This document shows, one piece after another, positions 26,191-43,841 of a DNA stretch of 51,625 bases. Origin of the DNA: Desulfobacterales bacterium. GTDB taxonomy: Bacteria > Desulfobacterota > Desulfobacteria > Desulfobacterales > C00003060. A program made the translations under genes and the position numbers. The stretch is taken from positions 1-51,625 of the forward strand of contig JAGMBW010000040.1 of the NCBI GenBank assembly GCA_023129535.1, in the 5' to 3' direction. The notes under the pieces are model-generated. The model ran no database searches and was not told where the DNA came from. It saw only the letters and a program-made list of their open reading frames with translations. Positions within the stretch are counted from its first letter, which is position 1. Each line of letters opens with the position of its first letter.

Positions 26191-26216
26191 CCGGCCGAAC
26201 GGACTCAACACGAATT

Positions 26217-26258
26217 AAACCCATCACTCCAGTACTCCATTGCTCCAATGCTCCGGTA
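26217..26258. repeat. Remnant of a family-B array before waaF
   Basis: ACCCATCACTCCAGTACTCC followed by ATTGCTCCAATGCTCC shows one arm only; the second arm is missing. Confidence 0.75.
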
Positions 26259-26283
26259 GGGCGGAGCCCCGGACGTTCGCCTG

Positions 26284-27345
26284 ATGATACAAAGAAGACT
26301 GAATTCTGGCGAGATCAAACGCATCCTCATTCGTTCCACCAACTGGGTTGGAGACGCCATACTGACTACACCAGCAGTTCGCGCGGTTCGAAAAAATTTT
26401 CCGGACGCACGGATCAGCCTCTTGGCCAAGCCATGGGTGGCGCCCGTTTTTTACAATAATCCCTATGTGGATCAAATCATACCGTACGATTTGGCAGGAA
26501 GACATGCGGGATGGTTGGGAAAAGCTCGGCTGATCAAAGAATTGCGCAGGACCAAGTTTGACCTCGTCGTCCTTTTTCAAAACGCCTTTGAGGCGGCCCT
26601 GCTGGCTTATTTGGCCGGGGTCCCGAAGAGGCTTGGGTACGATACCGATGGCCGCCGTTTTCTACTTACACACAGCATTCGTCTTGAGCCAGGTCGTAAG
26701 CTGGGCCACCAAATTGACTACTATCTCGGGATTCTAGAAGGGGCTTCTCTGAAGCTTACCGGCAGGGGTCTTACCCTAATGGTGACTGACCAGGAGCGCA
26801 GCCGGGCAGAAGATATCCTGATGAGACACCACGTAACGGGACAAGGGAGATTAATAGGCATAAATCCTGGGGCTACATATGGATCGGCCAAGCGATGGGC
26901 TCCTGAACGGTATGCAGCTCTCTGTGATAAGATACAGGACTCATGGTCAGCTCACATTATTATCTTTGGCGGACCTGCTGAAAAGGCGATTGGGCGGCGA
27001 ATTTCTGAGCTAATGAAAAAGGACTGCATCAATCTTTGCGGCAAGACTAACCTTCGTGAGGCCGTGGCCTTAATTGAAAGATGTCGACTTTTTGTTACAA
27101 ACGATTCTGGCCTAATGCACGTAGTAGCAGCCCTTGATATTCCACTGGTTGCCATCTTTGGCTCTACTGATCCTGTGGCAACAGGTCCTACCAGTCCGAG
27201 GAGCCACATCGTCAGGGTGCGGGTGCCATGCAGCCCATGTCTCAAACCGGAGTGCCCCACGGACCATAGGTGCATGAGAGAGATTACTGTGGACAAGGTA
27301 TATGCTGTGGTCGACACATTGCTTGGGGAGACCAGTAAGGAATAA
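26284..27345 (+). CDS. waaF: ADP-heptose:LPS heptosyltransferase II (WaaF-like)
   Basis: A 353-residue GT9 enzyme of the WaaF type. It begins with IKRILIRSTNWVGDAILTTPAVRAVRKNFP, and carries GINPGATYGSAKRWAPERYAALCD and FVTNDSGLMHVVAALDIP, the nucleotide-sugar-binding region. The C-terminal Cys-rich block is CSPCLKPECPTDHRCM. It adds the second heptose to the inner core. Together with waaC downstream it indicates a heptose-containing inner core. The ATG at 26284 gives a normal N-terminus; the segment upstream is repeat. Confidence 0.9.
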   Translation: MIQRRLNSGEIKRILIRSTNWVGDAILTTPAVRAVRKNFPDARISLLAKPWVAPVFYNNPYVDQIIPYDLAGRHAGWLGKARLIKELRRTKFDLVVLFQNAFEAALLAYLAGVPKRLGYDTDGRRFLLTHSIRLEPGRKLGHQIDYYLGILEGASLKLTGRGLTLMVTDQERSRAEDILMRHHVTGQGRLIGINPGATYGSAKRWAPERYAALCDKIQDSWSAHIIIFGGPAEKAIGRRISELMKKDCINLCGKTNLREAVALIERCRLFVTNDSGLMHVVAALDIPLVAIFGSTDPVATGPTSPRSHIVRVRVPCSPCLKPECPTDHRCMREITVDKVYAVVDTLLGETSKE

Positions 27346-27546
27346 ACGGAGTGCCTAAAGTGAACTAAAGTGCCTAAAGTGCCTAAAGTTTAATGATGAA
27401 AACATTTGTAATTCAGGAATTGTGAATTGATGAGGTGAAGGAATTCTCTTTGATTTTAAACCCTTAATGCATGAATCCCTAAATTTTGCTCACTTTAGCT
27501 AACTTTAGGCACTTTAGCTCACTTTAGCTCACTTTAGTCACTGGTT
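27346..27546. repeat. Word-repeat array family F between waaF and waaC, inverted arms
   Basis: GTGCCTAAAGTGAACTAAAGTGCC (in units) at 27352-27388 pairs with TTTAGCTAACTTTAGGCACTTTAGC and two more TTTAGCTCAC units at 27494-27538. About 105 nt of unique AT-rich sequence lies between. The right arm ends 12 nt before the waaC ATG. Confidence 0.9.
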
Positions 27547-27548
27547 TT

Positions 27549-28586
27549 ATGAACATACTGGTTGTCAAAATGAGTGCCATCGGAGATGTCATCCATACGC
27601 TCCCGGCAGCGAATGCGCTCAGAAAGCACTTTCCTGACGCCCATATTACCTGGCTGGTGGAGGAGACAGCCTGTGGAATCGTCGAATCCCATGAGGCGGT
27701 GGACCGGGTCCTTATTTTGAAACGGAGATGCTGGCTAAAGGGGCTGCTAAGCCCCTGCTGGCTTGAAAACCTGACAAGCATCTTTCACTTCGTAAAGGAG
27801 ATCCGGGATACGACCTACGACGTGGTGATCGACTTTCAGGGACTACTCAAGAGCGCGGCAATAGTTGGTCTGTGCCGAACGAAGCGCAGCATGGGCTATA
27901 ACAAGACCCGTGAATTCAGCTTTATGGTTCTGAGTGATCGCATGCCCCCCTTTGATATGGACAAGCATGCTATTCTTAGATATTCGAACCTGATCAAATA
28001 TTTGGGTGTTAACTCGAGCGAAATAAAGTTTAATGTCCCCTTTGGCGATAAGGAAAGGTCGGATATCAGGTCCATGCTCCGCCAAAAGGGATGGCACAAG
28101 CAGTCTATCATTGCCATGAGTCCGGTGGCAAAATGGCTTACCAAGCTCTGGGATGTTGACAAGTTTTGCTGGTTGGCAGACAGGCTCATTGAAGAGTTGG
28201 GTGTTTTTGTGGTTTTTACCGGAAGCGACACAGACAAAAAAGAGGTTGCAAAGATCATCTCCAGGATGCGCCATCCATGCACTGACTTTTCGGGCCAAAC
28301 CGATTTGAAGCATCTGGCTGCCCTGTACGAGGAGTGCAAATGTCTGGTATCCACAGATACAGGACCCATGCATCTGGCTGCAGCAGTGGGAACACGCGTA
28401 GTTGCTCTCTTCGGCCCCACAGCCCCCTGGAGAACAGGTCCCTTTGGTGAAGGCCATGAAGTTTTGCGTGTTGACTTGTCTTGCAGTCCGTGCTTCAAGA
28501 AGAAGTGTGATCGTGGTGACTGTATGAGGGATATCTCTGTTGAGCAGGTTTTTGGTTCTGTTGCAAGGATTCTGAGAACACGATAA
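27549..28586 (+). CDS. waaC: ADP-heptose:LPS heptosyltransferase I (WaaC-like)
   Basis: A 345-residue GT9 enzyme starting MNILVVKMSAIGDVIHTLPA, the usual WaaC N-terminus. Further signatures are VIDFQGLLKSAAIVGL, SPVAKWLTKLWDVDKF and CLVSTDTGPMHLAAAVGTRVVALFGPTAP. A Cys-rich tail (CSPCFKKKCDRGDCM) follows. It transfers the first heptose to Kdo, the step after WaaA. The start is 12 nt after a family-F repeat, without a clear ribosome site. Confidence 0.9.
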   Translation: MNILVVKMSAIGDVIHTLPAANALRKHFPDAHITWLVEETACGIVESHEAVDRVLILKRRCWLKGLLSPCWLENLTSIFHFVKEIRDTTYDVVIDFQGLLKSAAIVGLCRTKRSMGYNKTREFSFMVLSDRMPPFDMDKHAILRYSNLIKYLGVNSSEIKFNVPFGDKERSDIRSMLRQKGWHKQSIIAMSPVAKWLTKLWDVDKFCWLADRLIEELGVFVVFTGSDTDKKEVAKIISRMRHPCTDFSGQTDLKHLAALYEECKCLVSTDTGPMHLAAAVGTRVVALFGPTAPWRTGPFGEGHEVLRVDLSCSPCFKKKCDRGDCMRDISVEQVFGSVARILRTR

Positions 28587-30976: not shown

Positions 30977-31189
30977 ATGACGAAGTCGCAAGAATGGATT
31001 ACAGAAAATTTTGAGTCTCTCGTTTCCAAATACGGGGGGAAATACATTGGTGTTCTCGATGAAGAGGTGGTATCAGTTGCTTTAACCCCTCGGGAAGTCC
31101 TGGAAAACGCCAAGAAGGCACACAAAGAAGAGGAGGGAATTTCTCTTTTAAAAGTTCCCACAGAGGAAGAGTTGATATGCATTTTGTAG
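30977..31189 (+). CDS. DUF5678-like small protein
   Basis: A 70-residue protein: EWITENFESLVSKYGGKYIGV, then VVSVALTPREVLENAKKAHK and LLKVPTEEE. This pattern matches DUF5678-type proteins, which are short, of unknown function, and in my recollection often encoded just upstream of a retropepsin-like protease, as here. Its end overlaps the next gene by 13 nt. AAGGTG precedes the ATG. Confidence 0.65.
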   Translation: MTKSQEWITENFESLVSKYGGKYIGVLDEEVVSVALTPREVLENAKKAHKEEEGISLLKVPTEEELICIL

Positions 31190-31572
31190 AGTTCAAGTAT
31201 GCCCTTCATAGGCGGAGAGATGTTCCTCTCATCCCAGTTGGCCTCAGGACGAAAGGAAAGTGGAAAGAAGTTTGGGCCTATGTCGATTCTGGCTGTTTCT
31301 ATAGCATTTTTGATGATAAGGTTGCTGATATATTAGATATTAACCTCACAGCGGGCAAGAAAGTTTTGGCAGTAGTTGGTGATGGTAGCTTTATTCCAAT
31401 CTATTTGCATACGGTGGGTATAAGGATAGGAGAGGATGAATTTGGCATGAAGATAGGCTTTTCCTCAAAATTAGGGGTGGGTTTCAACCTACTTGGGATG
31501 GATATTTTTGACCGATATCGAGTGACATTTGATAACAGAGCGAGGAAAGTTATATTCGAAAGTTACACGTGA
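31177..31572 (+). CDS. Retropepsin-like aspartyl protease domain protein
   Basis: A 131-residue single-domain protein. The catalytic triad is Asp37-Ser38-Gly39 in WAYVDSGCFYSIF, and NLLGMDIFDRYRVTFD is the typical second block near the C-terminus. There is no signal peptide, so it should be cytoplasmic; such proteins work as homodimers. It overlaps the DUF5678 gene by 13 nt. Targets are unknown. Confidence 0.72.
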   Translation: MHFVEFKYALHRRRDVPLIPVGLRTKGKWKEVWAYVDSGCFYSIFDDKVADILDINLTAGKKVLAVVGDGSFIPIYLHTVGIRIGEDEFGMKIGFSSKLGVGFNLLGMDIFDRYRVTFDNRARKVIFESYT

Positions 31573-32308: not shown

Positions 32309-33019
32309 CTATAAGTGTCGGTATTTCTTAGGTTCGCCTCTAAGATCTTTTTTTAGTTTCCGGTAAGCCCGCTTGATCCAGCGTGACACTTTCTCCACCA
32401 CTGTTCTGTTGTAGTATTGCCTGTCTTCATCGACTATATTTTCGAACTTTCGGTTATACTTCAACTTCACCCAGGCGTTGAAATCAAATTTCCTTGCAAG
32501 GTTATAGAGATAGCGATTTAGAGGTGCAAAACCAGGTTTACTGACGATAGCTACGCCAAAATCGATCATACAGGGCGCCCGTCCTTTGACGACGAGAAGG
32601 TTGTCCTTTTTCTTGAGATCGCCATGCGCCACACCCGCCTTGTGCAGCCCTTTGATCAGGTTCAACAGTTTTTCGAAAAACATGCCGCGATCCGTAATCC
32701 GGGATCTTCGTAGCGGAACCCCGTTGATGCATTCAAGCACCAGGTAGCGCCCATCCAGAATGCCGTAACAGCGCGGCACACCGCGTACTTCAGATAACCT
32801 GGAGTAGGCCCTGTACTCGTTGCGCAACATCACCCGCCGGATGAGCCCGCCTAACCCCCACCCCACAGGAGCCTTGAGTATTAGACGCTGACCTTTGCCT
32901 TTATACAGATAGACATGGCCCTGACTACCGCGGCTAAGAATGTTCGATTTGGTTTTGACGCTGCTCCTGACCCACTTAAGGAGCTCGATTTCGGTAAGGT
33001 TATCCAGCTTCTTCAACAT
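32309..33019 (-). CDS. Protein-kinase-fold LPS kinase-like protein
   Basis: A 236-residue kinase of the Kdo kinase/RIO-like group. The glycine-rich loop SRGSQGHVYLYKG is at about residues 29-41, the ATP-binding Lys49 is in LILKAP, the catalytic loop HGDLKKKDNLLVV is at 132-144 (Asp134, Asn140), and the metal site is Asp153 in MIDFGVA. All key residues are present. I chose ATG 33019; upstream in-frame codons lie in the methyltransferase gene in another frame. GTG 33028 is an alternative. It is the last gene of the minus-strand cluster. Phosphorylation of a core sugar is the likely role; a protein substrate cannot be excluded. Confidence 0.75.
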   Translation of the reverse strand: MLKKLDNLTEIELLKWVRSSVKTKSNILSRGSQGHVYLYKGKGQRLILKAPVGWGLGGLIRRVMLRNEYRAYSRLSEVRGVPRCYGILDGRYLVLECINGVPLRRSRITDRGMFFEKLLNLIKGLHKAGVAHGDLKKKDNLLVVKGRAPCMIDFGVAIVSKPGFAPLNRYLYNLARKFDFNAWVKLKYNRKFENIVDEDRQYYNRTVVEKVSRWIKRAYRKLKKDLRGEPKKYRHL

Positions 33020-33035
33020 CGACGGCACGGCGGGT

Positions 33036-33608
33036 TCAATGCAGCCCCATCCAGAGGAAGTAGAGCCAAGACAGTAAAAATAGGGCGATAATGGGCTCAC
33101 CGTTATCCCGCAGGCTTTGCATGAACGACCAACTGCCACGTTGGCCGGGCTGATAGGGGGTAAGGCGTGGAATAAGCCCCTGGGTCTCTTTGCGCCATTG
33201 TTCCCACTCCTCTTTAAATCTGCGATGAAGCTTTTCATCTTCTCGACGGATGGCAGGAGGATAAAAGGCGAGCAACATCCCTATCAACAGTGGGAGACTC
33301 CACCATAAGCTGGAGGCAAGGGCAAAGCCAAATCCCAACGTGAGGTTGCCCACATATAGAGGGTGCCTGACATAGGCGTAAGGCCCGTCGGTGGCAAGGA
33401 TCTTGTTCTTTTTAATATGCCCTGATGCCCACAGGCGCGCTGCAATACCCAGGATAACCAGCGCTGCACCAGCAACGAACAACATTTCCTTTGGTTCGCC
33501 TGCAACACTGGCCAGGATGATAAAGGCGATGCCAAGGAATTGGCGGAAGCGTTCCCGGTGGTATCGGAGATCGTGAAGAAATCGTTGCAACCCGAAAGCT
33601 GTTGCCAT
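33036..33608 (-). CDS. Isoprenylcysteine/phospholipid methyltransferase-like membrane protein
   Basis: A 190-residue protein with about four hydrophobic helices (22-36, 40-60, 88-115 and 170-187). The motif DGPYAYVRHPLYVGNLTLG at about 73-91 and the later REDEKLHRRFKEEWEQW are the S-adenosylmethionine-binding signature of the ICMT/PEMT family. It methylates a carboxyl or amino group of a membrane-embedded substrate, which is not identified. It lies between two LPS-kinase genes (19 nt after one, 16 nt before the other), so the substrate could be an LPS or lipid headgroup. Confidence 0.78.
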   Translation of the reverse strand: MATAFGLQRFLHDLRYHRERFRQFLGIAFIILASVAGEPKEMLFVAGAALVILGIAARLWASGHIKKNKILATDGPYAYVRHPLYVGNLTLGFGFALASSLWWSLPLLIGMLLAFYPPAIRREDEKLHRRFKEEWEQWRKETQGLIPRLTPYQPGQRGSWSFMQSLRDNGEPIIALFLLSWLYFLWMGLH

Positions 33609-33627
33609 TGATTCAGTCCTCCTCTGT

Positions 33628-34335
33628 TCACCCCACTTCGTAATCCTTCCGAAGCCCTGCGCACATCATGTCGCAGAGCATCTCCGGCAACCGATGCTTG
33701 ATTACAGCACGTCGCCAACGACTAAGGTAATGATCTCGTAACTTATTTTTATTGTGCCGAGGAAGACGGGCCTTGTCAAAATCAACGAGAAATACCCGGT
33801 CACGACTGTCCACTAACACATTGCCAGGATGCAAATCGACATGAAAGATATTGTTATTGATAAGAGTGGAGACCTGATCGACGACCTTTTTCATCGCAAT
33901 GTGAGCATGTTCCTCATCTGCACAACTGAGTTCAGCAAGTGTTTGTTTCTGTTTAATCTCTCTGGTTACCAGCCACGCTTTATAGAACAAACTGCCCTGG
34001 GAAGCATAGGCAATCGGCTCGGGGGCATTTACACCGAGGCTCCTTACTTTCTGCAATATCTCATACTCAATCTGACAACGCGTTTTGCCCCACTTCAGGT
34101 ACCTTCGTTTGACCAGGTATCGAATAAGCCCTCCACGGGTATAATATTTGATGACTACCGATCCTACCCCTTCAAGCTGAGCAATAGTAACCGAGCTTCT
34201 TCCGCCAAGGACCGAATCAACAGTATTTGTAGGGGTATTAAAGAGTCTGATGAGTTGCTCCAATTGTCGGGCAGTAAGATCAGATGACGATCCGAAATGA
34301 TACGAATCATATATTTTGGTTAGTGCCTTACTCAT
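33628..34335 (-). CDS. Kdo kinase-like protein (KdkA/InaA family)
   Basis: A 235-residue protein with a Kdo/heptose kinase fold. The ATP-binding Lys63 is in VVIKYYTRGG, followed by the typical arginine-rich segment. The catalytic loop FHVDLHPGNVLVD has Asp167 and Asn172, and the metal-binding Asp185 is in FLVDFDKARL. It fits KdkA or related core kinases that phosphorylate Kdo or heptose with ATP on the cytoplasmic side. Its start overlaps the stop of the upstream glycosyltransferase by 4 nt (ATGA). Confidence 0.82.
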   Translation of the reverse strand: MSKALTKIYDSYHFGSSSDLTARQLEQLIRLFNTPTNTVDSVLGGRSSVTIAQLEGVGSVVIKYYTRGGLIRYLVKRRYLKWGKTRCQIEYEILQKVRSLGVNAPEPIAYASQGSLFYKAWLVTREIKQKQTLAELSCADEEHAHIAMKKVVDQVSTLINNNIFHVDLHPGNVLVDSRDRVFLVDFDKARLPRHNKNKLRDHYLSRWRRAVIKHRLPEMLCDMMCAGLRKDYEVG

Positions 34336-35339
34336 TGAATATCTAGCAATTTCTCAGTCGCGCTTATTACTTCAAGATGTGAAAGTTCCTTCATGCAAGC
34401 CTCAGTCCCTGTCGGGCACGTTTTTCCCCCGTGTCGGCTGCAAGGCCTGCAAGGAAGGTCCTTCTCCACCACAACTGCCTTATTCTTCCAGGGATAGAAG
34501 CCAAATTGCGGGGATGTCGCACAAAAAATCGCAACGTTCGGAACCTTAAATGCAGAAGCAATATGAAGGACCATGCTGTCGTTACACACAACCAGCCTTG
34601 CATTTTTTATGATGTACATCGTGTCTGGAATACTCGTTTTTCCTGCAAAATTGCTGACTTCAAGTCCCTGAGCCACCATGGCGTTTACCTTTTCATCTGA
34701 CGGCGCTCCCAGGAGAACGACCGCAAAGCCTCGTTTGAGCAAGAACTGAGCTACCTCACGATACCCCTTCCAGTGCCACATCTTGGTTTTCCAAACACTT
34801 CCGGGCACAAGTACCACATAACCACCAGGCTGAGGCAACATTCTGTTAACCTCATTGTCAAGCTCGTTTCTCAAAGGCGGGAATAAACGCAGCTCCGCTT
34901 CCAGTGACTCGAGAGGAACCTCCCCGGAAAGCAATGACAGGTTGCGAACCACGTCATGGTCGCCAGAATTTCGTTCTCGTATCTCATGATAGAGAAAGTT
35001 AAGCTTGGCATTCGCAAATCCGATGCGAACAGGAATGCCGCAAAGCCAGAGCAAAACCGATGTGCGGGGAGAACGATGAAGCGAATACACCCTGTCAAAC
35101 CTCATCGCCATGATTCGACGTTTCATTCGCAACAGACCGGAGAATCCTGCATCCTTCCCTCGTTTATTGTATGTAAGAACTCCAGCAAGAAGTGGATCGC
35201 GCATCACCAGCGACGAGGCAAGTGGCGTTGTCATCATCCAGAGCTCAGCATCGGGATAAATCTTTTTGATGCCAGAGATAACAGGAGTAGAAAGAATTGT
35301 ATCTCCCAGGAAACTTGTCTGAACGAGAAGTATCTTCAT
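34332..35339 (-). CDS. GT9 heptosyltransferase-family protein
   Basis: A 335-residue GT9 enzyme: MKILLVQTSFLGDTILSTPV at the start, VVLVPGSVWKTKMWHWKGY in the middle and LVVCNDSMVLHIASAFKVP with the nucleotide-sugar contacts. Usual ADP-heptose transferases carry NDSGxMH; here NDSMVLH varies, so the donor may differ. It is separate from waaC/waaF and probably adds an outer-core heptose. Coupled to the kinase gene downstream by an ATGA overlap. Confidence 0.85.
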   Translation of the reverse strand: MKILLVQTSFLGDTILSTPVISGIKKIYPDAELWMMTTPLASSLVMRDPLLAGVLTYNKRGKDAGFSGLLRMKRRIMAMRFDRVYSLHRSPRTSVLLWLCGIPVRIGFANAKLNFLYHEIRERNSGDHDVVRNLSLLSGEVPLESLEAELRLFPPLRNELDNEVNRMLPQPGGYVVLVPGSVWKTKMWHWKGYREVAQFLLKRGFAVVLLGAPSDEKVNAMVAQGLEVSNFAGKTSIPDTMYIIKNARLVVCNDSMVLHIASAFKVPNVAIFCATSPQFGFYPWKNKAVVVEKDLPCRPCSRHGGKTCPTGTEACMKELSHLEVISATEKLLDIQ

Positions 35340-35364
35340 TTTGTGAGCAGGTTATCCATCCATT

Positions 35365-36441
35365 CTATTTCATTCGTGCAAGGAGTCTCTCAACGGCACC
35401 CAAAACATCCTCCACCTCAACCGCTGCCATGCACGTCCGAACCCGGCATCCCATTTTCCGGCAGGGGCTGCAATCGACACTTCTCCGCACGACCTCGTGG
35501 GGGGAGTAGGGACCGGGTTCGTTCTCGGTAGGATCCGTTGGCCCCCAAATTGCCACCACAGGGGTACCGACAAGGGTTGCCATGTGCATGGCGCCCGTAT
35601 CTGATCCGATATAGACATCGCTCTGAGAAAGAATGTACGCCAAATGCAGCGGCGTTTCCGTCTTTGGCGCGATGCGCACATCCTCCCTGCTTATCTCAGC
35701 TATCTTGGATACGAAGTCGAGTTCGTCCGGTGCCCAGGTGAATAATATCCTCCCGTTGAAACGTATCACAATTTGGTCGGCAAGACTTGCATAGCGGTCT
35801 GAAAACCACCTCTTGTAGATGGCCCGGGCACTGGTCCCGGGATGAATCGCGAAGATATGACCCCCTGGGGGAAGTTGATCGAAGAAAGGCGAAAGCTCAC
35901 CTACAATACGGGATGGGAAGTGAATAAGCGCTTTCGGATTCGGCTTGCATCCGCCGAGATACTCCGCAAGCGCCATATTCCTCTTGTACCTGGAAAGTTT
36001 CCCCTCCGGGAGACTCACCTTCTCGGTGTTGGCCAGGTGGCTGAACTCCTTCGTGCCTGTTGCGTCGTAACCGATTCTGCGTCCAGTTTTTGCAAGCAGA
36101 GATACGGCGGCGCTCTTCAGCACCCCGTGGAAGTCAACGACCATATCGTAGTCGGTAGACCTGAGCCTCTTGACAAAGGAGCGAAACTGACGCGCGGTGC
36201 GTATAAATCCCGCAGGAGTGAGGAAAATCCTGCGCCACAGCCGGGTTGCAAAAACGAGGACCTGATGTATGGCAGGGTGTCCGTTGAGGAAAGATGCCCC
36301 AAGGGTCTCGGTTACCCACGTGATCTTGCTTCCCGGGAAGGCATTGGATATGGAAACCACGGCAGGCAGCGTACGGACAACGTCTCCAAGCGCGCTTAGC
36401 CTGATCACCAGGATCTTTACCGCGTCATCGCCATTTTTCAT
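35365..36441 (-). CDS. GT9 heptosyltransferase-family protein
   Basis: A 358-residue GT9 enzyme with VKILVIRLSALGDVVRTLPA, VVDFHGVLKSAAVSLL, IHPGTSARAIYKRWF and VYIGSDTGAMHMATLVGTPVVAIWGPTDP, close in type to WaaC. I chose ATG 36441 because it overlaps the stop of a 52-codon frame upstream (ATGA); a longer frame from 36579 has no support. A Cys-rich tail (CSPCRKMGCRVRTC) ends the protein. A core heptose or related sugar transferase. Confidence 0.86.
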   Translation of the reverse strand: MKNGDDAVKILVIRLSALGDVVRTLPAVVSISNAFPGSKITWVTETLGASFLNGHPAIHQVLVFATRLWRRIFLTPAGFIRTARQFRSFVKRLRSTDYDMVVDFHGVLKSAAVSLLAKTGRRIGYDATGTKEFSHLANTEKVSLPEGKLSRYKRNMALAEYLGGCKPNPKALIHFPSRIVGELSPFFDQLPPGGHIFAIHPGTSARAIYKRWFSDRYASLADQIVIRFNGRILFTWAPDELDFVSKIAEISREDVRIAPKTETPLHLAYILSQSDVYIGSDTGAMHMATLVGTPVVAIWGPTDPTENEPGPYSPHEVVRRSVDCSPCRKMGCRVRTCMAAVEVEDVLGAVERLLARMK

Positions 36442-36596
36442 ATCAGTATGTAATTGAGCTTGTCGCAAATACAGTCGTCGAGGAGTTTCTTGAATGTCTC
36501 CATCTCCATCAATTGAATCTTGCTTGTCAGCTTCTCGCGGGGGCAGATCGTGCAGCGCGCTGGGACGATCCCGTAGCATTTCGGGAGTTTGTTCAT
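36438..36596 (-). pseudogene. 52-codon remnant resembling a radical SAM N-terminus, coupled to the GT9 gene
   Basis: Starts at ATG with AAGGAG 10 nt upstream and ends with a TGA overlapping the next ATG. The residues PARCTICPREKLTSKIQL and METFKKLLDDC resemble the beginning of radical SAM enzymes, but the first Cys of CxxxCxxC is missing and the protein ends before the barrel. Either a deleted gene whose start and stop signals were retained, or a leader peptide that couples translation. I favour the deleted gene. Confidence 0.5.
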
Positions 36597-36643
36597 TTAT
36601 GTACTGCTCCTTGGCTTTTTTCAGTTGTAGAAATCCCGAAACG

Positions 36644-38083
36644 TTAAATTAAGTTCAACTGCTTAAATTTTTTACGAAAAAGCATGTTAACATCTGAGTC
36701 GTTATCCCATCCCTGCAAGAACTCCAAAACCCCCTTGGCCACGCTGGAACGGCTGAAAAATGCCGCCTGGTTCAATTGCACGACATCTAGAAATATGGGC
36801 TCTAGATCTGAAATAAGAATATTTGTGCTGTGCACCCCGCGAACGGCGATACCGGTTTGTTTCATCGCAAGAAAAACTTTTGCAATCCGCTCCGTTACAG
36901 AGTCCTTATCGTCGTCCGACACAGAATCAGACGCGAAAAAATCCCGCGCAAGGATTCCATCGCAGGATTTCACTATCAAAAAAGCACGCCATATTCTACT
37001 ATTTTCCCGTTTCTCAATCAGGGCAATCGGACGAGGGGTATGTATTCCGAGCCGGTTGAGCCGCAGTGCGTTTCGCCATCTTCGGGAAATAATACCGTGT
37101 CGCCTAAACAAACGATTGCCGAAAACACGGACCGAATACAAGGTAATCGGTACGGCGTCAATCGACAGATGGCAACAATGATTACTATCCAACTGCTGGC
37201 CATTAGTGTCGGATATAAATCGTTCTGGATTCTCGCAAACCAACGTGAATTCATCGTTCCAAACTCTACGATCACGCACTGAAAAATAATCGGGCGCTTT
37301 GCATACCAAGAACGGATCCCGTGAGCGAAATATCTTTCTCATGTATGTCGCCAGGTGGCGCTTCCGCATGCGTTTGACTATTCCAATTAGCTTTTGGGTA
37401 TCCCCTCCAGTCACGTGCCACCCTCTTACCGAACAATAAGCCTGGTAATGCTCAGCAATCGCGGCATCATGGATTGGCGAAAAATAGGATAAGAATGCGG
37501 CCAGATTTGCCAGTGAGGGGCGTTTACTTAAGGGGTGCAAATAGATACGTACCTGGTCCCCATCAAGCGAGTAAATTTCCTTGCCTTGCAACAAGAAATT
37601 TCCCATGTGTACATCATTTTGAACTATCCCTTGTTCATGCTGTCTGGCCAAACATGCCATGAGCTGATCAAGCAATTGTTGCCTTTGAGCCTCATCAGGA
37701 GCGTCGGCTAAAGCTGTATCAAACCGAACGGCATTTTCAATATACTCGAATACCATCACGTAGAGGTCATGTTCAGAAAGATACCCGGAAAACAGTATCT
37801 TCGGGGCAGTGAGGGAGCACTCAACAAATACTCGACAACCCCTATCACTTCGCTGCCAGTGGATCTTCGCTCGTCGAGGATCGAAATAGAGTTTTACGAC
37901 GACTTCATTGCCGCCAATCTCACCCAGACAAACAATCCGCTTACCTCGGATGGCTCGAAAAACCCGAGTACAGGTGATAGTCCCGATGGATGGTACGTCG
38001 AAGGCGAATGACGCTGCCCTCCCGGTTCGAACATGGTCCTGGGTTACGTTGGCAAGGGCGCTCTTTATGGACATAACTGCCAT
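36644..38083 (-). CDS. Tandem LPS-kinase protein: active-type kinase plus degenerate kinase
   Basis: A 479-residue protein with two Kdo/heptose-kinase-fold domains. Domain 1 (about 20-240) has Lys64 in VVVKLYFDP, the catalytic loop QNDVHMGNFLL (Asp157, Asn162) and Asp174 in SLDGDQV; Gln replaces the usual His, but the chemistry residues remain. Domain 2 (about 270-479) resembles the separate kinase at 40145-40900. Arg replaces the ATP-binding Lys (YSVRVFG), Gly replaces the catalytic Asp (VRGVHSTNILI), and only the later Asp (IFLDVVQL) remains, so it should be a pseudokinase. ATG 38083 is preferred (38074 and TTG 38128 are alternatives). Membrane-associated cytoplasmic LPS core kinase is likely. 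Confidence 0.78.
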   Translation of the reverse strand: MAVMSIKSALANVTQDHVRTGRAASFAFDVPSIGTITCTRVFRAIRGKRIVCLGEIGGNEVVVKLYFDPRRAKIHWQRSDRGCRVFVECSLTAPKILFSGYLSEHDLYVMVFEYIENAVRFDTALADAPDEAQRQQLLDQLMACLARQHEQGIVQNDVHMGNFLLQGKEIYSLDGDQVRIYLHPLSKRPSLANLAAFLSYFSPIHDAAIAEHYQAYCSVRGWHVTGGDTQKLIGIVKRMRKRHLATYMRKIFRSRDPFLVCKAPDYFSVRDRRVWNDEFTLVCENPERFISDTNGQQLDSNHCCHLSIDAVPITLYSVRVFGNRLFRRHGIISRRWRNALRLNRLGIHTPRPIALIEKRENSRIWRAFLIVKSCDGILARDFFASDSVSDDDKDSVTERIAKVFLAMKQTGIAVRGVHSTNILISDLEPIFLDVVQLNQAAFFSRSSVAKGVLEFLQGWDNDSDVNMLFRKKFKQLNLI

Positions 38084-38152
38084 TCCACTGTTGCAATTGT
38101 GAGCAAAGCGAACTAAGTTTTCGAGCAAGTCAATCTGACACTCGCCGGTACT

Positions 38153-39205
38153 TTACTGGTAAGGTCGGGTTAACTTGCGATATACATGATCATAAGCCTT
38201 GGCCATTAAAGGGACATTAAAGTCTCGTTCCACTAGACTATAAGCCTGTGTGGTACAACGACGACGCAAATCCGGATTGTCCAACATTCGAAGCAAATCT
38301 TGCGCAACCTTCTGCGGGTTTTTCACCGGGGCTAATAATCCTGTTTGCTCATTTACAACGAGCTCGGGTATTCCGCCGGCCGCAGTCGCGACAACTGGTA
38401 CACGATAGAAAAATGCATCCAGAATGGCGCTACCCAACCCCTCTGCCTTGGACGTCATCAGAAAAACGCCAAAAATCGGATAATAGGAGTAAGGATCATC
38501 CTGGTAACCTTCGAATACAACGTTATCAAGGCCCAGTTCTTTGGCCTGAGCCTCCAGCTTTACTCGAAGAACGCCGTCTCCGATCAATACAAAGACGACG
38601 TCATTACGCTGTTTATTAACAAGGGCCGCGGCATCCAATAACGTAGTATGATCCTTACGGCCTTCTAGTGACGCTATACATCCCACAACCTTGCGGCCTG
38701 AAAACCTTTTTTTTAACTCCTGCACCTTAGCAGGTTCGGCCTTGTTTTCTAAACTGATCGCACTATGAATTACAGTGATAAGGGCGGGATCAAAACCCCA
38801 ATCAACCATGACCGACCGGATCTTCCTGGAGATCGCGATTAGTCGGTCCGCTTGTTTGTATATAAAACGCGTGAACGCGTGATGACTCGGCATATTATCA
38901 ACGCGCCGCGTAAGAACGAGGGGTCGCCCGTGGAAAAATTTCCAGAACGCGGCAAGTTGAAGACCCCGGACTTCATGAAGTTGAATAATATCAAAATGGC
39001 GGAGGAAAGGGCCGTGCAACAAGAATGGCTTATTGATGCTTTTTACGCTAAAGCCGCATTTTAATGCCCGTTGCACGAACAAATCGTTTTTGCGCGCTAG
39101 TAGATGGTTTTCATAGCCTATATCTCTAAGGCCCTTCATTAGATACAAGGTTTGTCTTTCGCCGCCTCGCCAACCACGCTCGAGATTGATGTGCAGGATT
39201 CGCAT
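38153..39205 (-). CDS. GT4 glycosyltransferase
   Basis: A 350-residue GT-B enzyme. It starts MRILHINLERGWRGGERQTLYLM (a common start in LPS-core glycosyltransferases). DRLIAISRKIRSVMV precedes the linker, GCIASLEGRKDHTTLLDAA is the donor-binding start, and MTSKAEGLGSAILDAFFYRVPVVATAAGGIPE contains the acidic catalytic/binding residues (EGLGxxxxE-like). It starts 5 nt after the GT2 gene stop; an earlier in-frame ATG at 39232 overlaps it. It transfers an unknown core sugar. Confidence 0.88.
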   Translation of the reverse strand: MRILHINLERGWRGGERQTLYLMKGLRDIGYENHLLARKNDLFVQRALKCGFSVKSINKPFLLHGPFLRHFDIIQLHEVRGLQLAAFWKFFHGRPLVLTRRVDNMPSHHAFTRFIYKQADRLIAISRKIRSVMVDWGFDPALITVIHSAISLENKAEPAKVQELKKRFSGRKVVGCIASLEGRKDHTTLLDAAALVNKQRNDVVFVLIGDGVLRVKLEAQAKELGLDNVVFEGYQDDPYSYYPIFGVFLMTSKAEGLGSAILDAFFYRVPVVATAAGGIPELVVNEQTGLLAPVKNPQKVAQDLLRMLDNPDLRRRCTTQAYSLVERDFNVPLMAKAYDHVYRKLTRPYQ

Positions 39206-39209
39206 CGGA

Positions 39210-39989
39210 CTATCGATTACGTCGATTTTCAATTGTTATTTGAGTTAATTTTGCCGCCATTACCAGCTCAGCAAATGAAGACATGGCCGCGATCAGGAAG
39301 CCGCGCCACCCATCGAGTATACCCAAACGGAGCACGAAATCCTTAAAAAAACGATACGGGGGACGCAACACCAGGTGCAGAACCGGCGCCGTCACTCCTT
39401 TCTCAAACTTATCTTCCGCCTTCCACGACGAATAACGGTTGATCTTGGCTACCCAGGCTGCCATGGAAGAAACGGTATGGTGATCAAGACGAGCCGTGAG
39501 CACTCCCGTATTTTCGAGTTCTACCTTGGCGTGGACACGCTTCTTCTGATAGCGCCCAAGACCCCTACGAAATAAACGGAGCACACTGTCATCGCCCCAA
39601 CCAGAATGTTTGATGCACTTACCCATGAGATGATTATTTCGCCTGATCAAATATCCGTCCTTATCCGGGCCTCGCCGCAATAGTTCCTGAATCTCATCGC
39701 GCAGTGCCGGGGTTACCCGTTCGTCACTGTCCACGATCAAAACCCACTCGTGTTTCGCTTGGGGAATCGCCCAGGTATTCTGTGCGGCGTAATTGATATA
39801 TTCATGCTGTAAGATTCGATCGGTATATTTCCGGGCAATATTCAAAGTCTGGTCAGTGCTGAAGGAATCTACTACGAGGATCTCGTCCGCCCACATCACA
39901 CTTTGAAGACAGACTTCGATGTTTTTTCCCTCGTTGTAACACGGGGTAATCACCGTGAGCTTTTGCTGCTGATTCTTTTTAACGCTCAT
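39210..39989 (-). CDS. GT2 core glycosyltransferase, WaaE/KdtX-like
   Basis: A 259-residue GT-A enzyme: LTVITPCYNEGKNIEVCLQSV at the start, DEILVVDSFSTDQTLNIARK, then the metal-binding motif VLIVDSDERVTPALRDEI and FRRGLGRYQKKRVHAKVE. These match the WaaE/KdtX group, which add a glucose to the first heptose of the core. The last third has a hydrophobic, arginine-rich membrane-facing segment (RPPYRFFKDFVLRLG). The start overlaps the stop of a deacetylase remnant (ATGA). Confidence 0.88.
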   Translation of the reverse strand: MSVKKNQQQKLTVITPCYNEGKNIEVCLQSVMWADEILVVDSFSTDQTLNIARKYTDRILQHEYINYAAQNTWAIPQAKHEWVLIVDSDERVTPALRDEIQELLRRGPDKDGYLIRRNNHLMGKCIKHSGWGDDSVLRLFRRGLGRYQKKRVHAKVELENTGVLTARLDHHTVSSMAAWVAKINRYSSWKAEDKFEKGVTAPVLHLVLRPPYRFFKDFVLRLGILDGWRGFLIAAMSSFAELVMAAKLTQITIENRRNR

Positions 39990-40144
39990 AAAGTGGTCTT
40001 AACCTCTGTATTTGTCTTTCCTCTGGGATAGCAGAAATGGTGAACAGGGCATCCTGTTCGTTCTTCTATCTCGGCCTTTGATAAGGAAAGCTCCTCGCGC
40101 AACTGATGCCCTGGGAGCCTGTCGAGGTTCCCAATTTTCTGAAA
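39986..40144 (-). pseudogene. 3' remnant of a polysaccharide deacetylase gene
   Basis: Directly after the kinase TAG and in its frame, 52 codons include LREELSLSKAEIEERTGC and PVHHFCYPRGKTN. This matches the end of the NodB-type deacetylase motif (SKxxLExxxGxxVxxFxYPxG). The TGA overlaps the next ATG (ATGA), so the original deacetylase gene was probably coupled to the GT2 gene and lost all but its 3' end. No start codon with a ribosome site is seen. Confidence 0.6.
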
Positions 40145-40900
40145 CTAATCTCGATAATTGATGCCTACATCTTTCAATAGGCCCCGAAACAAAGCATCAG
40201 CCTCAGGATAACGTTGCCAACTTTTCATTAACGGTCGCCAACAATTCCGGTAAGCACGTCTAAACGTGAACAACCACCGATGTACTTGGATAGCATCCAA
40301 GTCTATCATCACAGGTCCCTGCGGCGATATGATGAAATTCTTTGCTTTTGTATCCCGCTGAACAATACGGGCCTGCCCCATTCGAACGATGAGATCTACC
40401 AACGCCTGCCCCATAACTTCCTGTTGATCAGGGTCAAGCTCAGGTGACGTGAAATATGTCAATGCGTCCGGCCCGGCTACCTCCTCAGCGAGAAAATAAG
40501 CACGTGAACGCAAAGGGCCGTAGCGTTCCTCAATCATGCCGACTGGAGGTGCGGTGGGAACGCCTATGAATTGTAATAAGTGGGAATTACGCCAAGAAAT
40601 CGCAGCACGCGTGGGTTGTATTGCTCGTTTCAGTCCATGCCCGAAATTCTTTATATTGTATCGTTTCAAAACCAAGCGACGACCATCCACCTCCACGAGC
40701 GCCACTGTTGCCGAATGTCCCCGCTTCAACCTTGCTATCGCCACTTGCATATGCGCATCCGGGTCTGTCAACAAGGAGCTTAATGCGTCGGATTCATATT
40801 CTCGCCGGTAAAGAGTCAGGCGACCAAAAGACTGACTACAAGCAACAGATGCACTTTCTCTGAAGACTTCGCTGAGATAATTCTGCACCAGGTCAGTCAT
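40145..40900 (-). CDS. LPS core kinase (RfaP/InaA-like)
   Basis: A 251-residue Kdo/heptose kinase-fold protein. Lys79 is in LVLKRYNIKN, the arginine-rich segment RAAISWRNSHLLQFIGVPTA follows, the catalytic loop is VQRDTKAKNFIIS (Asp183, Asn188) and the metal site is MIDLDAI (Asp200). It resembles WaaP/InaA kinases that phosphorylate inner-core heptose. It is the first gene of the minus-strand cluster; ATG 40900 is preferred to GTG 40909. A consensus promoter lies about 90 nt upstream. Confidence 0.82.
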   Translation of the reverse strand: MTDLVQNYLSEVFRESASVACSQSFGRLTLYRREYESDALSSLLTDPDAHMQVAIARLKRGHSATVALVEVDGRRLVLKRYNIKNFGHGLKRAIQPTRAAISWRNSHLLQFIGVPTAPPVGMIEERYGPLRSRAYFLAEEVAGPDALTYFTSPELDPDQQEVMGQALVDLIVRMGQARIVQRDTKAKNFIISPQGPVMIDLDAIQVHRWLFTFRRAYRNCWRPLMKSWQRYPEADALFRGLLKDVGINYRD

Positions 40901-40986
40901 GGATATCACGGATACGCTTCGTCGTCACCACCAATAATCGCATTAATGATAAATGAAATGATAAGAATTCCCTTTTGGGTCATATG

Positions 40987-41015: not shown

Positions 41016-41058
41016 GCAGGTAATCGCCTGTTGTAAAGCTGTTTCACTTGACACACAA
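41005..41058. promoter_or_regulatory. 12-bp inverted repeat holding both -35 boxes (possible operator)
   Basis: TTGTGTGTCAAG (41005-41016) and CTTGACACACAA (41047-41058) are exact reverse complements with 30 nt between. The spacer contains a smaller repeat, CAGG-N6-CCTG (41017-41030). Each arm supplies one -35 box and the extended sequence TTGACACACAA. Confidence 0.85.
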
Positions 41059-41076
41059 ACAACTTTATCCTATAAA
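41048..41076 (+). promoter_or_regulatory. Consensus-like sigma70 promoter for the plus-strand membrane protein
   Basis: TTGACA (41048-41053), 17 nt, then TATAAA (41071-41076). Five of six -10 bases and all -35 bases match. The predicted start near 41083 lies downstream of the TTG codon at 41048, which favours ATG 41144 as the gene start. Confidence 0.8.
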
Positions 41077-41143
41077 GCCTTTGCCAAAAAGAAAATTCTT
41101 ATCACTAATAATCAACATAAGCCAATTTCCGAGCAGATTGTCA

Positions 41144-42676
41144 ATGAAAGATTTTATGCAACGCGGTATTTACTTTATTAGTCAGCTTAAAGATGTTCGT
41201 CCCGTTGCGGCGCTATTGGCCGTGGTAACATTGTTCATCGCTGTCAGCATCCGAAATCCCTTGAACAGTGATGGCATACTCTATTTACAAACTGCCGATG
41301 CATTCACCCACTCTGGGTGGCAAGCAGCCATGAAACTCTATTGCTGGCCGTTTTATTCCGTACTGATCGCCTGGTTAGGCAAACTGGCCCATTTATCTTT
41401 CGAGCATAGTGCTTATGTATTGAACGCCGCTCTGTTAGTTGTCATCGTCACAACCTTCATTACTCTGATCAAGGAATTAGGCGGTTCTCGCACCGTGCAA
41501 TTTTTTGGCGCTATCATCATTCTCAGCCACCCACGCCTAAACCACTATCAAAACTACATAATTCGTGATTTTGGCTATTGGGCATTCAGTTTGTTATCGG
41601 TATTATACTTCATCCGCTACTATCGCAATCTACGCTGGCGCTATGCCTTAGGCTGGGGTATATGTATTAGCTTTGCCACATTGTTTCGAATTGAGGGTGC
41701 CGTGCTGTGCTGCTTGAGCCCTCTCGTGTTACTAGTTCGCTCGAACACAGGGCTATGGAGCAGATTAGGATATACACTCAAAGCATATACTGTCAACATC
41801 ATAACTCTAGCTATTCTATTGACTTGGTGGTTCTGTATGCCACATGAGTCAAGCGAGCAACTTGGCCGACTCAGCGAGTTCTGGAATCAGTTGCAAAATG
41901 GCTTAATGTTGTTAAGTAACAATCTGCATAACAAAGCAGCACTCATTAGCCAAACTGTACTTGATGACGCGTCAAAAAAGTGGGGCTTAATCATGACCAT
42001 CTCTGGGCTTGCTGGAATATATCTCTACAGATTGGTTACCACCCTTTGGCCACTCCATATCTTACTTTGTGCCTATGGTGTTTGCAAAAAGCTGATGCCA
42101 ATAGAGGATGGTGCCAAAAAGGTGCTGATGTACTTTACATTATTAAATCTACTGATTCCAGCCATATTCTTAGGGCAACAGTTTTTCATCTCACACCGTT
42201 TTTTGATGCTATCAAGCCTATTACTTCTCCTTTGGTCGCCCTTCAGCTTACACACGATTTATCAGCACTGGCGAGATAAAAAAACAGTGCTAACAGGTAA
42301 CTCTTTATTATTTCCTTTCCTCTCACTTGTGTTTCTAATCATGTTTGTCTATGCCTTTATTCCACCTAAACAATCCAAGATATACGTGGTCTCAGCTGGT
42401 ATATGGCTAAAAGAGAACATGCCTGAGCAGGCAAAACTCTATAGCAATAAGCGGCAAATTGCTTTTTACGCACAACGACAATTTATGTCATGGGATATTT
42501 CTGAAAACCTCAGTATACCGGAGTGGGCATCTGATGATGTTGTTGCTTTAAGAGTGCGTAAAAAGAATTATGAAAAGGTTAGAAAATGCTTAATACCGTT
42601 AAAACTCAAGCCTGTCAAAGTTTTTGCAGATCAAAAAGGTGATAGAGTTATCATTTTTAAAGTTTCTGAAAGCTAA
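41144..42676 (+). CDS. Polytopic membrane protein, GT39/ArnT-like glycosyltransferase candidate
   Basis: A 510-residue protein with about 10-12 hydrophobic helices and a soluble C-terminal tail (about 400-510). After the first helix comes NPLNSDGILYLQTADAFTHSG, an acidic loop like that of GT39-type, polyprenol-phosphate-sugar-using transferases, in which an Asp is catalytic. RNLRWRYALGWGICISFATLFRIEGA resembles the membrane core of that superfamily. The gene is more AT-rich than its neighbours by eye, and its codon use differs. It would act on the periplasmic face and add a sugar to LPS or protein. The promoter position supports ATG 41144. No close family could be named. Confidence 0.6.
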   Translation: MKDFMQRGIYFISQLKDVRPVAALLAVVTLFIAVSIRNPLNSDGILYLQTADAFTHSGWQAAMKLYCWPFYSVLIAWLGKLAHLSFEHSAYVLNAALLVVIVTTFITLIKELGGSRTVQFFGAIIILSHPRLNHYQNYIIRDFGYWAFSLLSVLYFIRYYRNLRWRYALGWGICISFATLFRIEGAVLCCLSPLVLLVRSNTGLWSRLGYTLKAYTVNIITLAILLTWWFCMPHESSEQLGRLSEFWNQLQNGLMLLSNNLHNKAALISQTVLDDASKKWGLIMTISGLAGIYLYRLVTTLWPLHILLCAYGVCKKLMPIEDGAKKVLMYFTLLNLLIPAIFLGQQFFISHRFLMLSSLLLLLWSPFSLHTIYQHWRDKKTVLTGNSLLFPFLSLVFLIMFVYAFIPPKQSKIYVVSAGIWLKENMPEQAKLYSNKRQIAFYAQRQFMSWDISENLSIPEWASDDVVALRVRKKNYEKVRKCLIPLKLKPVKVFADQKGDRVIIFKVSES

Positions 42677-42797: not shown

Positions 42798-42838
42798 GCG
42801 GCGTAGCCGCATTATATAAAATCGCTTCGCGATTTTAT
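42798..42838. other. Two adjacent hairpins upstream of the LpxL-like gene
   Basis: GCGGCGTAGCCGC (42798-42810) and ATAAAATCGC-TTC-GCGATTTTAT (42816-42838, 10-bp stem) follow a run of seven T. The second stem ends over the ATG at 42837. They may end the upstream transcript or restrict initiation; neither has the standard T-tract after it. Confidence 0.5.
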
Positions 42839-42857
42839 GACAAAGTTGAGGATATGT

Positions 42858-43841
42858 ATGGCAGGGAAAGGAGAAGAACAGGGACAACAGAGATCGAGGA
42901 AACCACATGGCTTTTTCGGCACATTTACAGCTTTCATTGCAAGTATGCCACAAAAGCATATTGCCGGTGTTGGCAAGTTAGTAGGGACACTTGCATATAT
43001 CCTGGATAGACGTCATCGGCGCATCGTGAAGCGCAACTTGCAATTCACCCATCCTGAATGGTCCCGGGACCGCATCCAGAGACTCTACAAACGTGTTTTC
43101 CAAAACATGGGGGTTACTGTTCTGGAAATCTGTCAGATGATGTGCTTTTCCAGGGAGGATATACTGCGCAAAGTCCGAATCAGGGGAAAAGAGAATCTGC
43201 TTAATGCTATGAAAAGTCCAAAAGGCATTATCATGATTTCAGCTCACCTGGGGAACTGGGAAATGGCTCACCTATTTATTTCTTGCTATCTCCAGAAGCC
43301 CTTATTATTGGTGGTTAGACAGATTCAGCCCAAGGTTCTTAATCGGTGGATTCACAGACTTCGGAGTAATTTTGGGAATATTCTCGTATATAAGAAACGG
43401 GCATTACCCAAAATGGCTCGGACGCTACTCCAGGGGAAAACGCTGGGATTATTGATCGACCAGGGAACCAAACTCTCACGAGGAGTTGAGGTTACTTTTT
43501 TCGGCCGTGCCGCTAATACGACTCCCGCCGCTGCTTTACTGGCAAGACGATACGACAGCCCAGTCCTGCCAGTTTTCTGTATCAGGGAAGCAGACGCCGG
43601 GCTTACCCTGATTGTAGAACCACCTCTTACCCTGAAGAGAACAGACGACCTGGGTGCTGACTTGAAAGTAAATACACAGATTATGACTTCGGCTGTCGAA
43701 AAAGCAGTGAGGGCATATCCAGAGCAGTGGTTTTGGTTTCACAAACGCTGGAAACGGCACTATCCATATCTGTACCCCGAAGATCTGGCCAGGCGACAAC
43801 GTCGCAGAGAAAAAAAGAGAGCGCGATTGAGAAAGGTGTAA
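42858..43841 (+). CDS. Lipid A late acyltransferase, LpxL/HtrB family
   Basis: A 327-residue protein of the LpxL/LpxM lysophospholipid acyltransferase family. The catalytic HxxxxE is in MISAHLGNWEMAHLF. LGLLIDQGTKLSRGVEVTFFGR is the conserved Asp-Gln block, and PEQWFWFHKRWKRHYP is the C-terminal signature. The usual N-terminal membrane helix is weak here. It adds a secondary acyl chain to Kdo-lipid A. ATG 42858 has GAGG 7 nt upstream; ATG 42837 is inside a hairpin. Which position is acylated is unknown. Confidence 0.88.
   Translation: MAGKGEEQGQQRSRKPHGFFGTFTAFIASMPQKHIAGVGKLVGTLAYILDRRHRRIVKRNLQFTHPEWSRDRIQRLYKRVFQNMGVTVLEICQMMCFSREDILRKVRIRGKENLLNAMKSPKGIIMISAHLGNWEMAHLFISCYLQKPLLLVVRQIQPKVLNRWIHRLRSNFGNILVYKKRALPKMARTLLQGKTLGLLIDQGTKLSRGVEVTFFGRAANTTPAAALLARRYDSPVLPVFCIREADAGLTLIVEPPLTLKRTDDLGADLKVNTQIMTSAVEKAVRAYPEQWFWFHKRWKRHYPYLYPEDLARRQRRREKKRARLRKV

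Follow-up and report, generated by a model that had tools for sequence, protein, structure and literature searches.

The window analysed is a stretch of 51,625 nucleotides from a Desulfobacterales bacterium (genome G000), and positions 32309–40909 of its minus strand hold nine co-directional ORFs, all of them confirmed. In the order of transcription these are K4, GT2, GT4, K3, GT9b, GT9a, K2, a methyltransferase and K1. The initial annotation had described five kinase folds in four proteins, one of them with two domains, together with four glycosyltransferases (two GT9, GT4 and GT2) and a membrane methyltransferase; the ORFs and their Pfam and NCBIfam matches, all on one strand, bear out this inventory. 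Two gene starts were redefined. The listed K1 ORF (32309–33238) runs about 200 bases into the methyltransferase gene, which means that K1 must start near 33019, and the start of K3 was moved from a TTG to the ATG at 38083, which matches its ortholog. A perfect σ70-like promoter, recognized by its consensus alone (TTGACA-17-TATAAT, 12 of 12 positions, 41015–40987, minus strand), stands directly upstream of K4 and is consistent with a single transcription unit. Internal promoters could still lie in two gaps, which measure 155 and about 200 bases. Throughout the 2.9 Mb genome there are three matches to PF06293, and all three lie inside this stretch; the clustering of the kinases is therefore not a matter of chance.

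The flanks carry lpx genes, waaA-lpxK, waaC, waaF and lpxL. On the plus strand, a waaA-lpxK fusion and two GT9 genes (WaaF- and WaaC-like) occupy 23746–28586, and an LpxL-type lipid A acyltransferase (PF03279, E 2e-56) is encoded at 42837–43841. Because of these neighboring lipid A and LPS genes and an ADP-heptose synthase domain encoded elsewhere in the genome, an LPS-core context for the cluster is well supported. The fusion itself is a single ORF of 814 amino acids (23746–26190) that joins WaaA/KdtA to LpxK; the congener G017 encodes the two proteins in separate genes, and LpxK likewise stands alone in G020 and G021.

K2 (33628–34335) is a KdkA-like Kdo kinase. It matches PF06293 well above the cut-off (E 3e-19, 69.8 bits against 21.3) and PRK01723, the NCBIfam equivalog for Kdo kinase, below it (99.4 bits against 142). 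Its homologs adjoin homologs of waaA/waaC in five relatives (G017, G001, G018, G011 and G037), which gives K2 the genomic association with Kdo transferase and heptosyltransferase I expected of a KdkA. The two GT9 enzymes resemble heptosyltransferases and fall below the respective equivalog cut-offs: GT9a (34332–35339; PF01075, E 3e-39) is heptosyltransferase II-like, with 132.9 bits to TIGR02195 and so just short of 134.6, and GT9b (35365 to about 36441; PF01075, E 3e-33) is heptosyltransferase I-like, with 147 bits to TIGR02193 against 185. GT4 (38153–39232; PF00534, E 7e-34) is 48–58% identical to proteins beside or near K3 homologs in G061, G463 and G677, and GT2 (39210–39989; PF00535, E 3e-15) is 53–67% identical to proteins in the same position in G061 and G677.

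These similarities extend to gene order. G061, which belongs to another family of the same order, shares the arrangement K2-GT9a-K3-GT4-GT2-K4 with proteins 41–59% identical, and the search for the gene set elsewhere that had been proposed returned similar kinase sets in relatives. The K2-GT9a adjacency is found in G055 as well as in G061, the neighbors GT2-GT4-K3 recur in G677, and GT4-K3 recurs in G463. Other families conserve the block of GT2, GT4 and the two-domain kinase. The locus varies within the genus of the window, where G017 and G002 alone have the two-domain kinase in common with it.

K3 is this two-domain kinase. Its N-terminal domain (37373–38083) retains intact catalytic motifs (VVKLYF, QNDVHMGN and SLDGD) and scores above the cut-off of the WaaY family PF06176 (23.3 bits against 20.3), as does its homolog in G363 with 28.8 bits; against the NCBIfam RfaY equivalog it reaches 30 bits, far below the cut-off of 248. 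The C-terminal domain (36644–37372) matches PF06293 (E 2e-11), and both its β-3 Lys and its HRD Asp are gone, in the window as well as in the G002 ortholog. Defined as a kinase-family domain that lacks at least one of the β-3 Lys, HRD Asp and DFG Asp, a pseudokinase is what this domain is. Modeling of K3 with AlphaFold2 from a three-row alignment yielded a poor model (pLDDT 49), with which Foldseek returned kinases, none of them at E < 0.001, and K1 modeled from a single sequence fared no better (pLDDT 40); predicted structures were excluded from the evidence because of the quality of these models.

It is very improbable that every one of the five kinase domains is active and that each phosphorylates a different position of the core. 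All five regions are kinase-fold-like, as such a scheme needs, but it must account for a K3 C-domain stripped of its β-3 Lys and catalytic Asp in two species, for the absence of at least two of four key residues from every member of its clade (5/5: G000, G002, G061, G463 and G677), and for the failure of the equivalent change in WaaP, K51A, to support growth (PMC6147952). The C-domain is very probably non-catalytic, which leaves four of the five folds as likely catalysts. Other activities are known for some pseudokinases, SelO and SidJ among them (PMC10870513), and "non-catalytic" therefore stands here for an inferred property of the domain.

A comparison of K3 with its relatives places this loss in context. 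With a profile built from them, two-domain kinases were recovered from many genomes within the order and also from other classes of its phylum; most of the genomes are fragmented assemblies, in which absence counts for less than presence. Four positions (the β-3 Lys, the HRD Asp, the Asn five residues on and the DFG Asp) were scored in 57 two-domain kinases, 37 from an alignment and 20 more. The C-domain residues are intact in 50 of the 57 and degenerate in seven, and the K, D, N, D set of the N-domain is retained nearly throughout, the exceptions being G166 and G665, where the HRD Asp is replaced by Asn, and G773, which is cut by the end of its contig. The degenerate C-domains differ in what they have lost: the Lys, Asn and DFG Asp in G061, the HRD Asp, Asn and DFG Asp in G463, and all four residues in G677, while those of G363 and G365 end before the catalytic loop and have lost the C-lobe. 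They fall into two lineages, one of them spread over several families. In the N-domain tree G000, G002, G061, G463 and G677 form one clade (support 100/99), and G363 and G365 form a second (100/100). A topology with a single origin of all seven dead C-domains was rejected (p-AU 0.021), and catalysis by the C-domain was therefore lost at least twice.

Several observations accompany this survey. An assembly frameshift was considered for the truncation in G363 and was rejected, as G365 carries the same truncation. In both genomes the truncated two-domain kinase is followed by a gene of 583–592 amino acids (L097:2789–4540 in G363 and L138:1706–3484 in G365) whose start is carbamoyltransferase-like and recalls wapO beside the Pseudomonas kinases. 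In G166 (L079) and G665 (L160) the C-domain is intact, so that these proteins display the opposite loss. G600 carries two full two-domain kinases (L145 and L167), both with intact motifs.

K4 (40145–40909) aligns to the linker and C-domain of the two-domain kinases of relatives (G017, G057, G037, G040 and G024) at 36–39% identity, all its catalytic residues are present (VLKRYN, QRDTKAKN and IDLDAI), and it thus has the catalytic Lys, HRD Asp and DFG Asp looked for in a WaaP. Judged from its sequence, K4 is the intact stand-alone counterpart of the K3 C-domain. It scores 24.6 bits against the APH family PF01636 (cut-off 23.2) and 13.2 bits against the RfaP model (cut-off 170), and it has Asn in place of His168 of Pseudomonas aeruginosa WaaP (PMC6147952). 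Searches of the PDB with single sequences returned mostly generic protein kinases, and the best LPS-kinase structure matched by the K4 family profile, among many generic protein kinases, is WaaP (6dfl, E 1.8e-7). Of the four proteins to which a Kdo/heptose-kinase fold was first assigned, K2 and K3 match the Kdo and WaaY families, and K1 and K4 are only distant from WaaP and KdkA in their sequences.

Stand-alone C-kinases with full motifs occur in G000, G061 and G363, and in each of these genomes the fused C-domain is dead or truncated. The G061 protein groups with K4 in the tree (support 99), and that of G363 has a separate origin. This co-occurrence, and the C-lobe already missing from G363 and G365, would be expected if the dead domain were a decaying relic that K4 has simply replaced. 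Such a reading is improbable in light of how the domain is preserved. Between G000 and G002, the single species pair on which these estimates rest, ω is 0.28 for the C-domain (bootstrap 0.17–0.43), equal to that of the active N-domain (0.26) and like that of K2 (about 0.22), a value by which the C-domain counts as maintained by purifying selection. The dead domain also has its full length in each of the five members of an old clade, and it is retained in G463 and G677, two genomes 98–99% complete in which a search for a solo C-kinase found none. A rule that a dead fused C-domain is always accompanied by a stand-alone C-kinase was rejected on account of these two genomes. They also limit replacement as a general explanation: solo C-kinases may have taken over from the dead domain in G000, G061 and G363, but not throughout. 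The low ω and the full length favor a maintained role for the dead domain, presumably structural or allosteric.

The remaining two genes form a pair. K1 (32309 to about 33019) falls below every curated family cut-off, with 24.4 bits against Pkinase (cut-off 31.7) and 33.4 bits against arch_bud32 (cut-off 125); its nearest relatives are RIO/Bud32-type kinases, a homolog in G363 passes the RIO1 cut-off, and its family conserves the K, E, HxD, N and DF(G) positions. The adjoining gene (33036–33608) encodes an ICMT/PEMT-type integral-membrane methyltransferase with matches above the cut-off to PF04191 and PF04140. In all 11 loci with a K1 homolog above 250 bits, the methyltransferase adjoins K1 on the same strand, down to 23–28% identity for both proteins; three of these methyltransferases had seeded the methyltransferase profile, and BLAST had found all three beforehand. 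The constant partner of K1 is this methyltransferase and not a glycosyltransferase. This constant adjacency suggests a step in which a group is phosphorylated and then methylated, which is the preferred hypothesis.

Alternatively, K1 and the methyltransferase could be a separate module, dedicated for instance to phospholipid modification or to the regulation of membrane proteins, and mere neighbors of the core operon. This is a serious contender, if on balance a doubtful one. In G042, G037 and G040 the pair is located at a distance from the kinase and glycosyltransferase genes, and the closeness of K1 to RIO/Bud32-type protein kinases points the same way; yet the pair lies within or beside LPS gene sets in G000, G017, G020, G021 and G363, and the closest functional LPS model of the methyltransferase, and its best NCBIfam match, is LmtA, though weakly (37.7 bits, cut-off 325). 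LmtA is the lipid A 1-phosphate methyltransferase of Leptospira, and WbdD is a kinase-methyltransferase; what either has in common with the pair is the idea of a phosphate that is then methylated. Here the two activities would reside in two separate proteins and, in contrast to WbdD, the methyltransferase is a membrane protein.

These results present a probable model in which the locus is an operon for the assembly and phosphorylation of the LPS inner core, with a maintained pseudokinase and a K1-methyltransferase pair. Assembly and phosphorylation of the inner core would take place at the cytoplasmic face. Heptoses are probably added by the two GT9 enzymes, and other sugars would come from GT4 and GT2. 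The most likely acceptor of K2 is Kdo, and the K3 N-domain and K4 would phosphorylate core sugars, with heptose as the likeliest acceptor. The K3 C-domain, devoid of phosphotransfer, would be retained to serve the N-domain kinase structurally or allosterically, with substrate, membrane or acyl-carrier binding as possible tasks, and its former catalytic job would be performed here by K4. K1 and the membrane methyltransferase would act as a pair; most likely a phosphate is added first, and this phosphate or a group close by is then methylated. Putative in this model are the acceptors, the order in which the steps occur, and what the pseudokinase and the methyltransferase do. A bolder version, in which a conserved pseudokinase partner domain that arose twice in Desulfobacterota allosterically controls or scaffolds the active domain of an LPS core kinase and the kinase-methyltransferase pair methyl-caps a core phosphate, is a speculative proposal and rather unlikely to hold in full. 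The multi-kinase set from which a heavily phosphorylated core was first proposed is real and recurs in relatives, but five steps are too many for a set in which one domain is very probably inactive; separate acceptor sugars for the individual kinases are plausible.

A comparison with Pseudomonas is instructive. The integrity of its outer membrane depends on inner-core phosphates, and both WaaP and WapP are essential (PMC6147952). There too, several LPS kinases and heptosyltransferases share one operon (waaF-waaC-wapG-waaP-wapP-wapQ-PA5006), and the number of one to three kinases given as usual in the initial annotation was an understatement, as waaP, wapP, wapQ and PA5006 are four adjacent kinase genes to which PA4998 is added (PMC8005017, PMC8707732). 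With about 493 amino acids, PA5006 is as long as a two-domain kinase (PMC8005017, PMC8707732). Among the relatives, G017 has K1 and K2 on the same contig as a two-domain kinase and a WaaP-like kinase, and G363 has K1-like, K2, WaaP-like and solo C-kinase genes and one further Pkinase-like gene within 9 kb. Kinase density by itself is not new. Unlike the Pseudomonas cluster, the present locus has kinases alternating with glycosyltransferases, a pseudokinase domain, and the kinase-methyltransferase pair. What appears to be new, and is unusual, is a maintained pseudokinase domain in an LPS kinase together with its predicted active stand-alone form in the same operon. A recent review of bacterial pseudokinase families (PMC12599244) was searched for mention of LPS and none was found, and literature searches on Desulfovibrio core structure, LmtA, and pseudokinases with heptose yielded nothing usable. 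The series of two-domain kinases, mostly intact and dead in two lineages, offers a direct way to probe the role of the second kinase fold and to ask whether pseudokinase regulation exists in LPS biosynthesis, and the kinase-methyltransferase pair points to an uncommon LPS modification in an uncultured lineage of sulfate reducers.

Two further ORFs were noted. A membrane protein of 542 amino acids (41048–42676) matches nothing in Pfam or NCBIfam; weak homologs, with 22–32% identity, are encoded near the two-domain kinases of G017, G024 and G040 and near the solo C-kinase of G363. Finally, a small ORF between the LPS gene blocks (31177–31572) is aspartyl-protease-like, with a weak match to PF09668.
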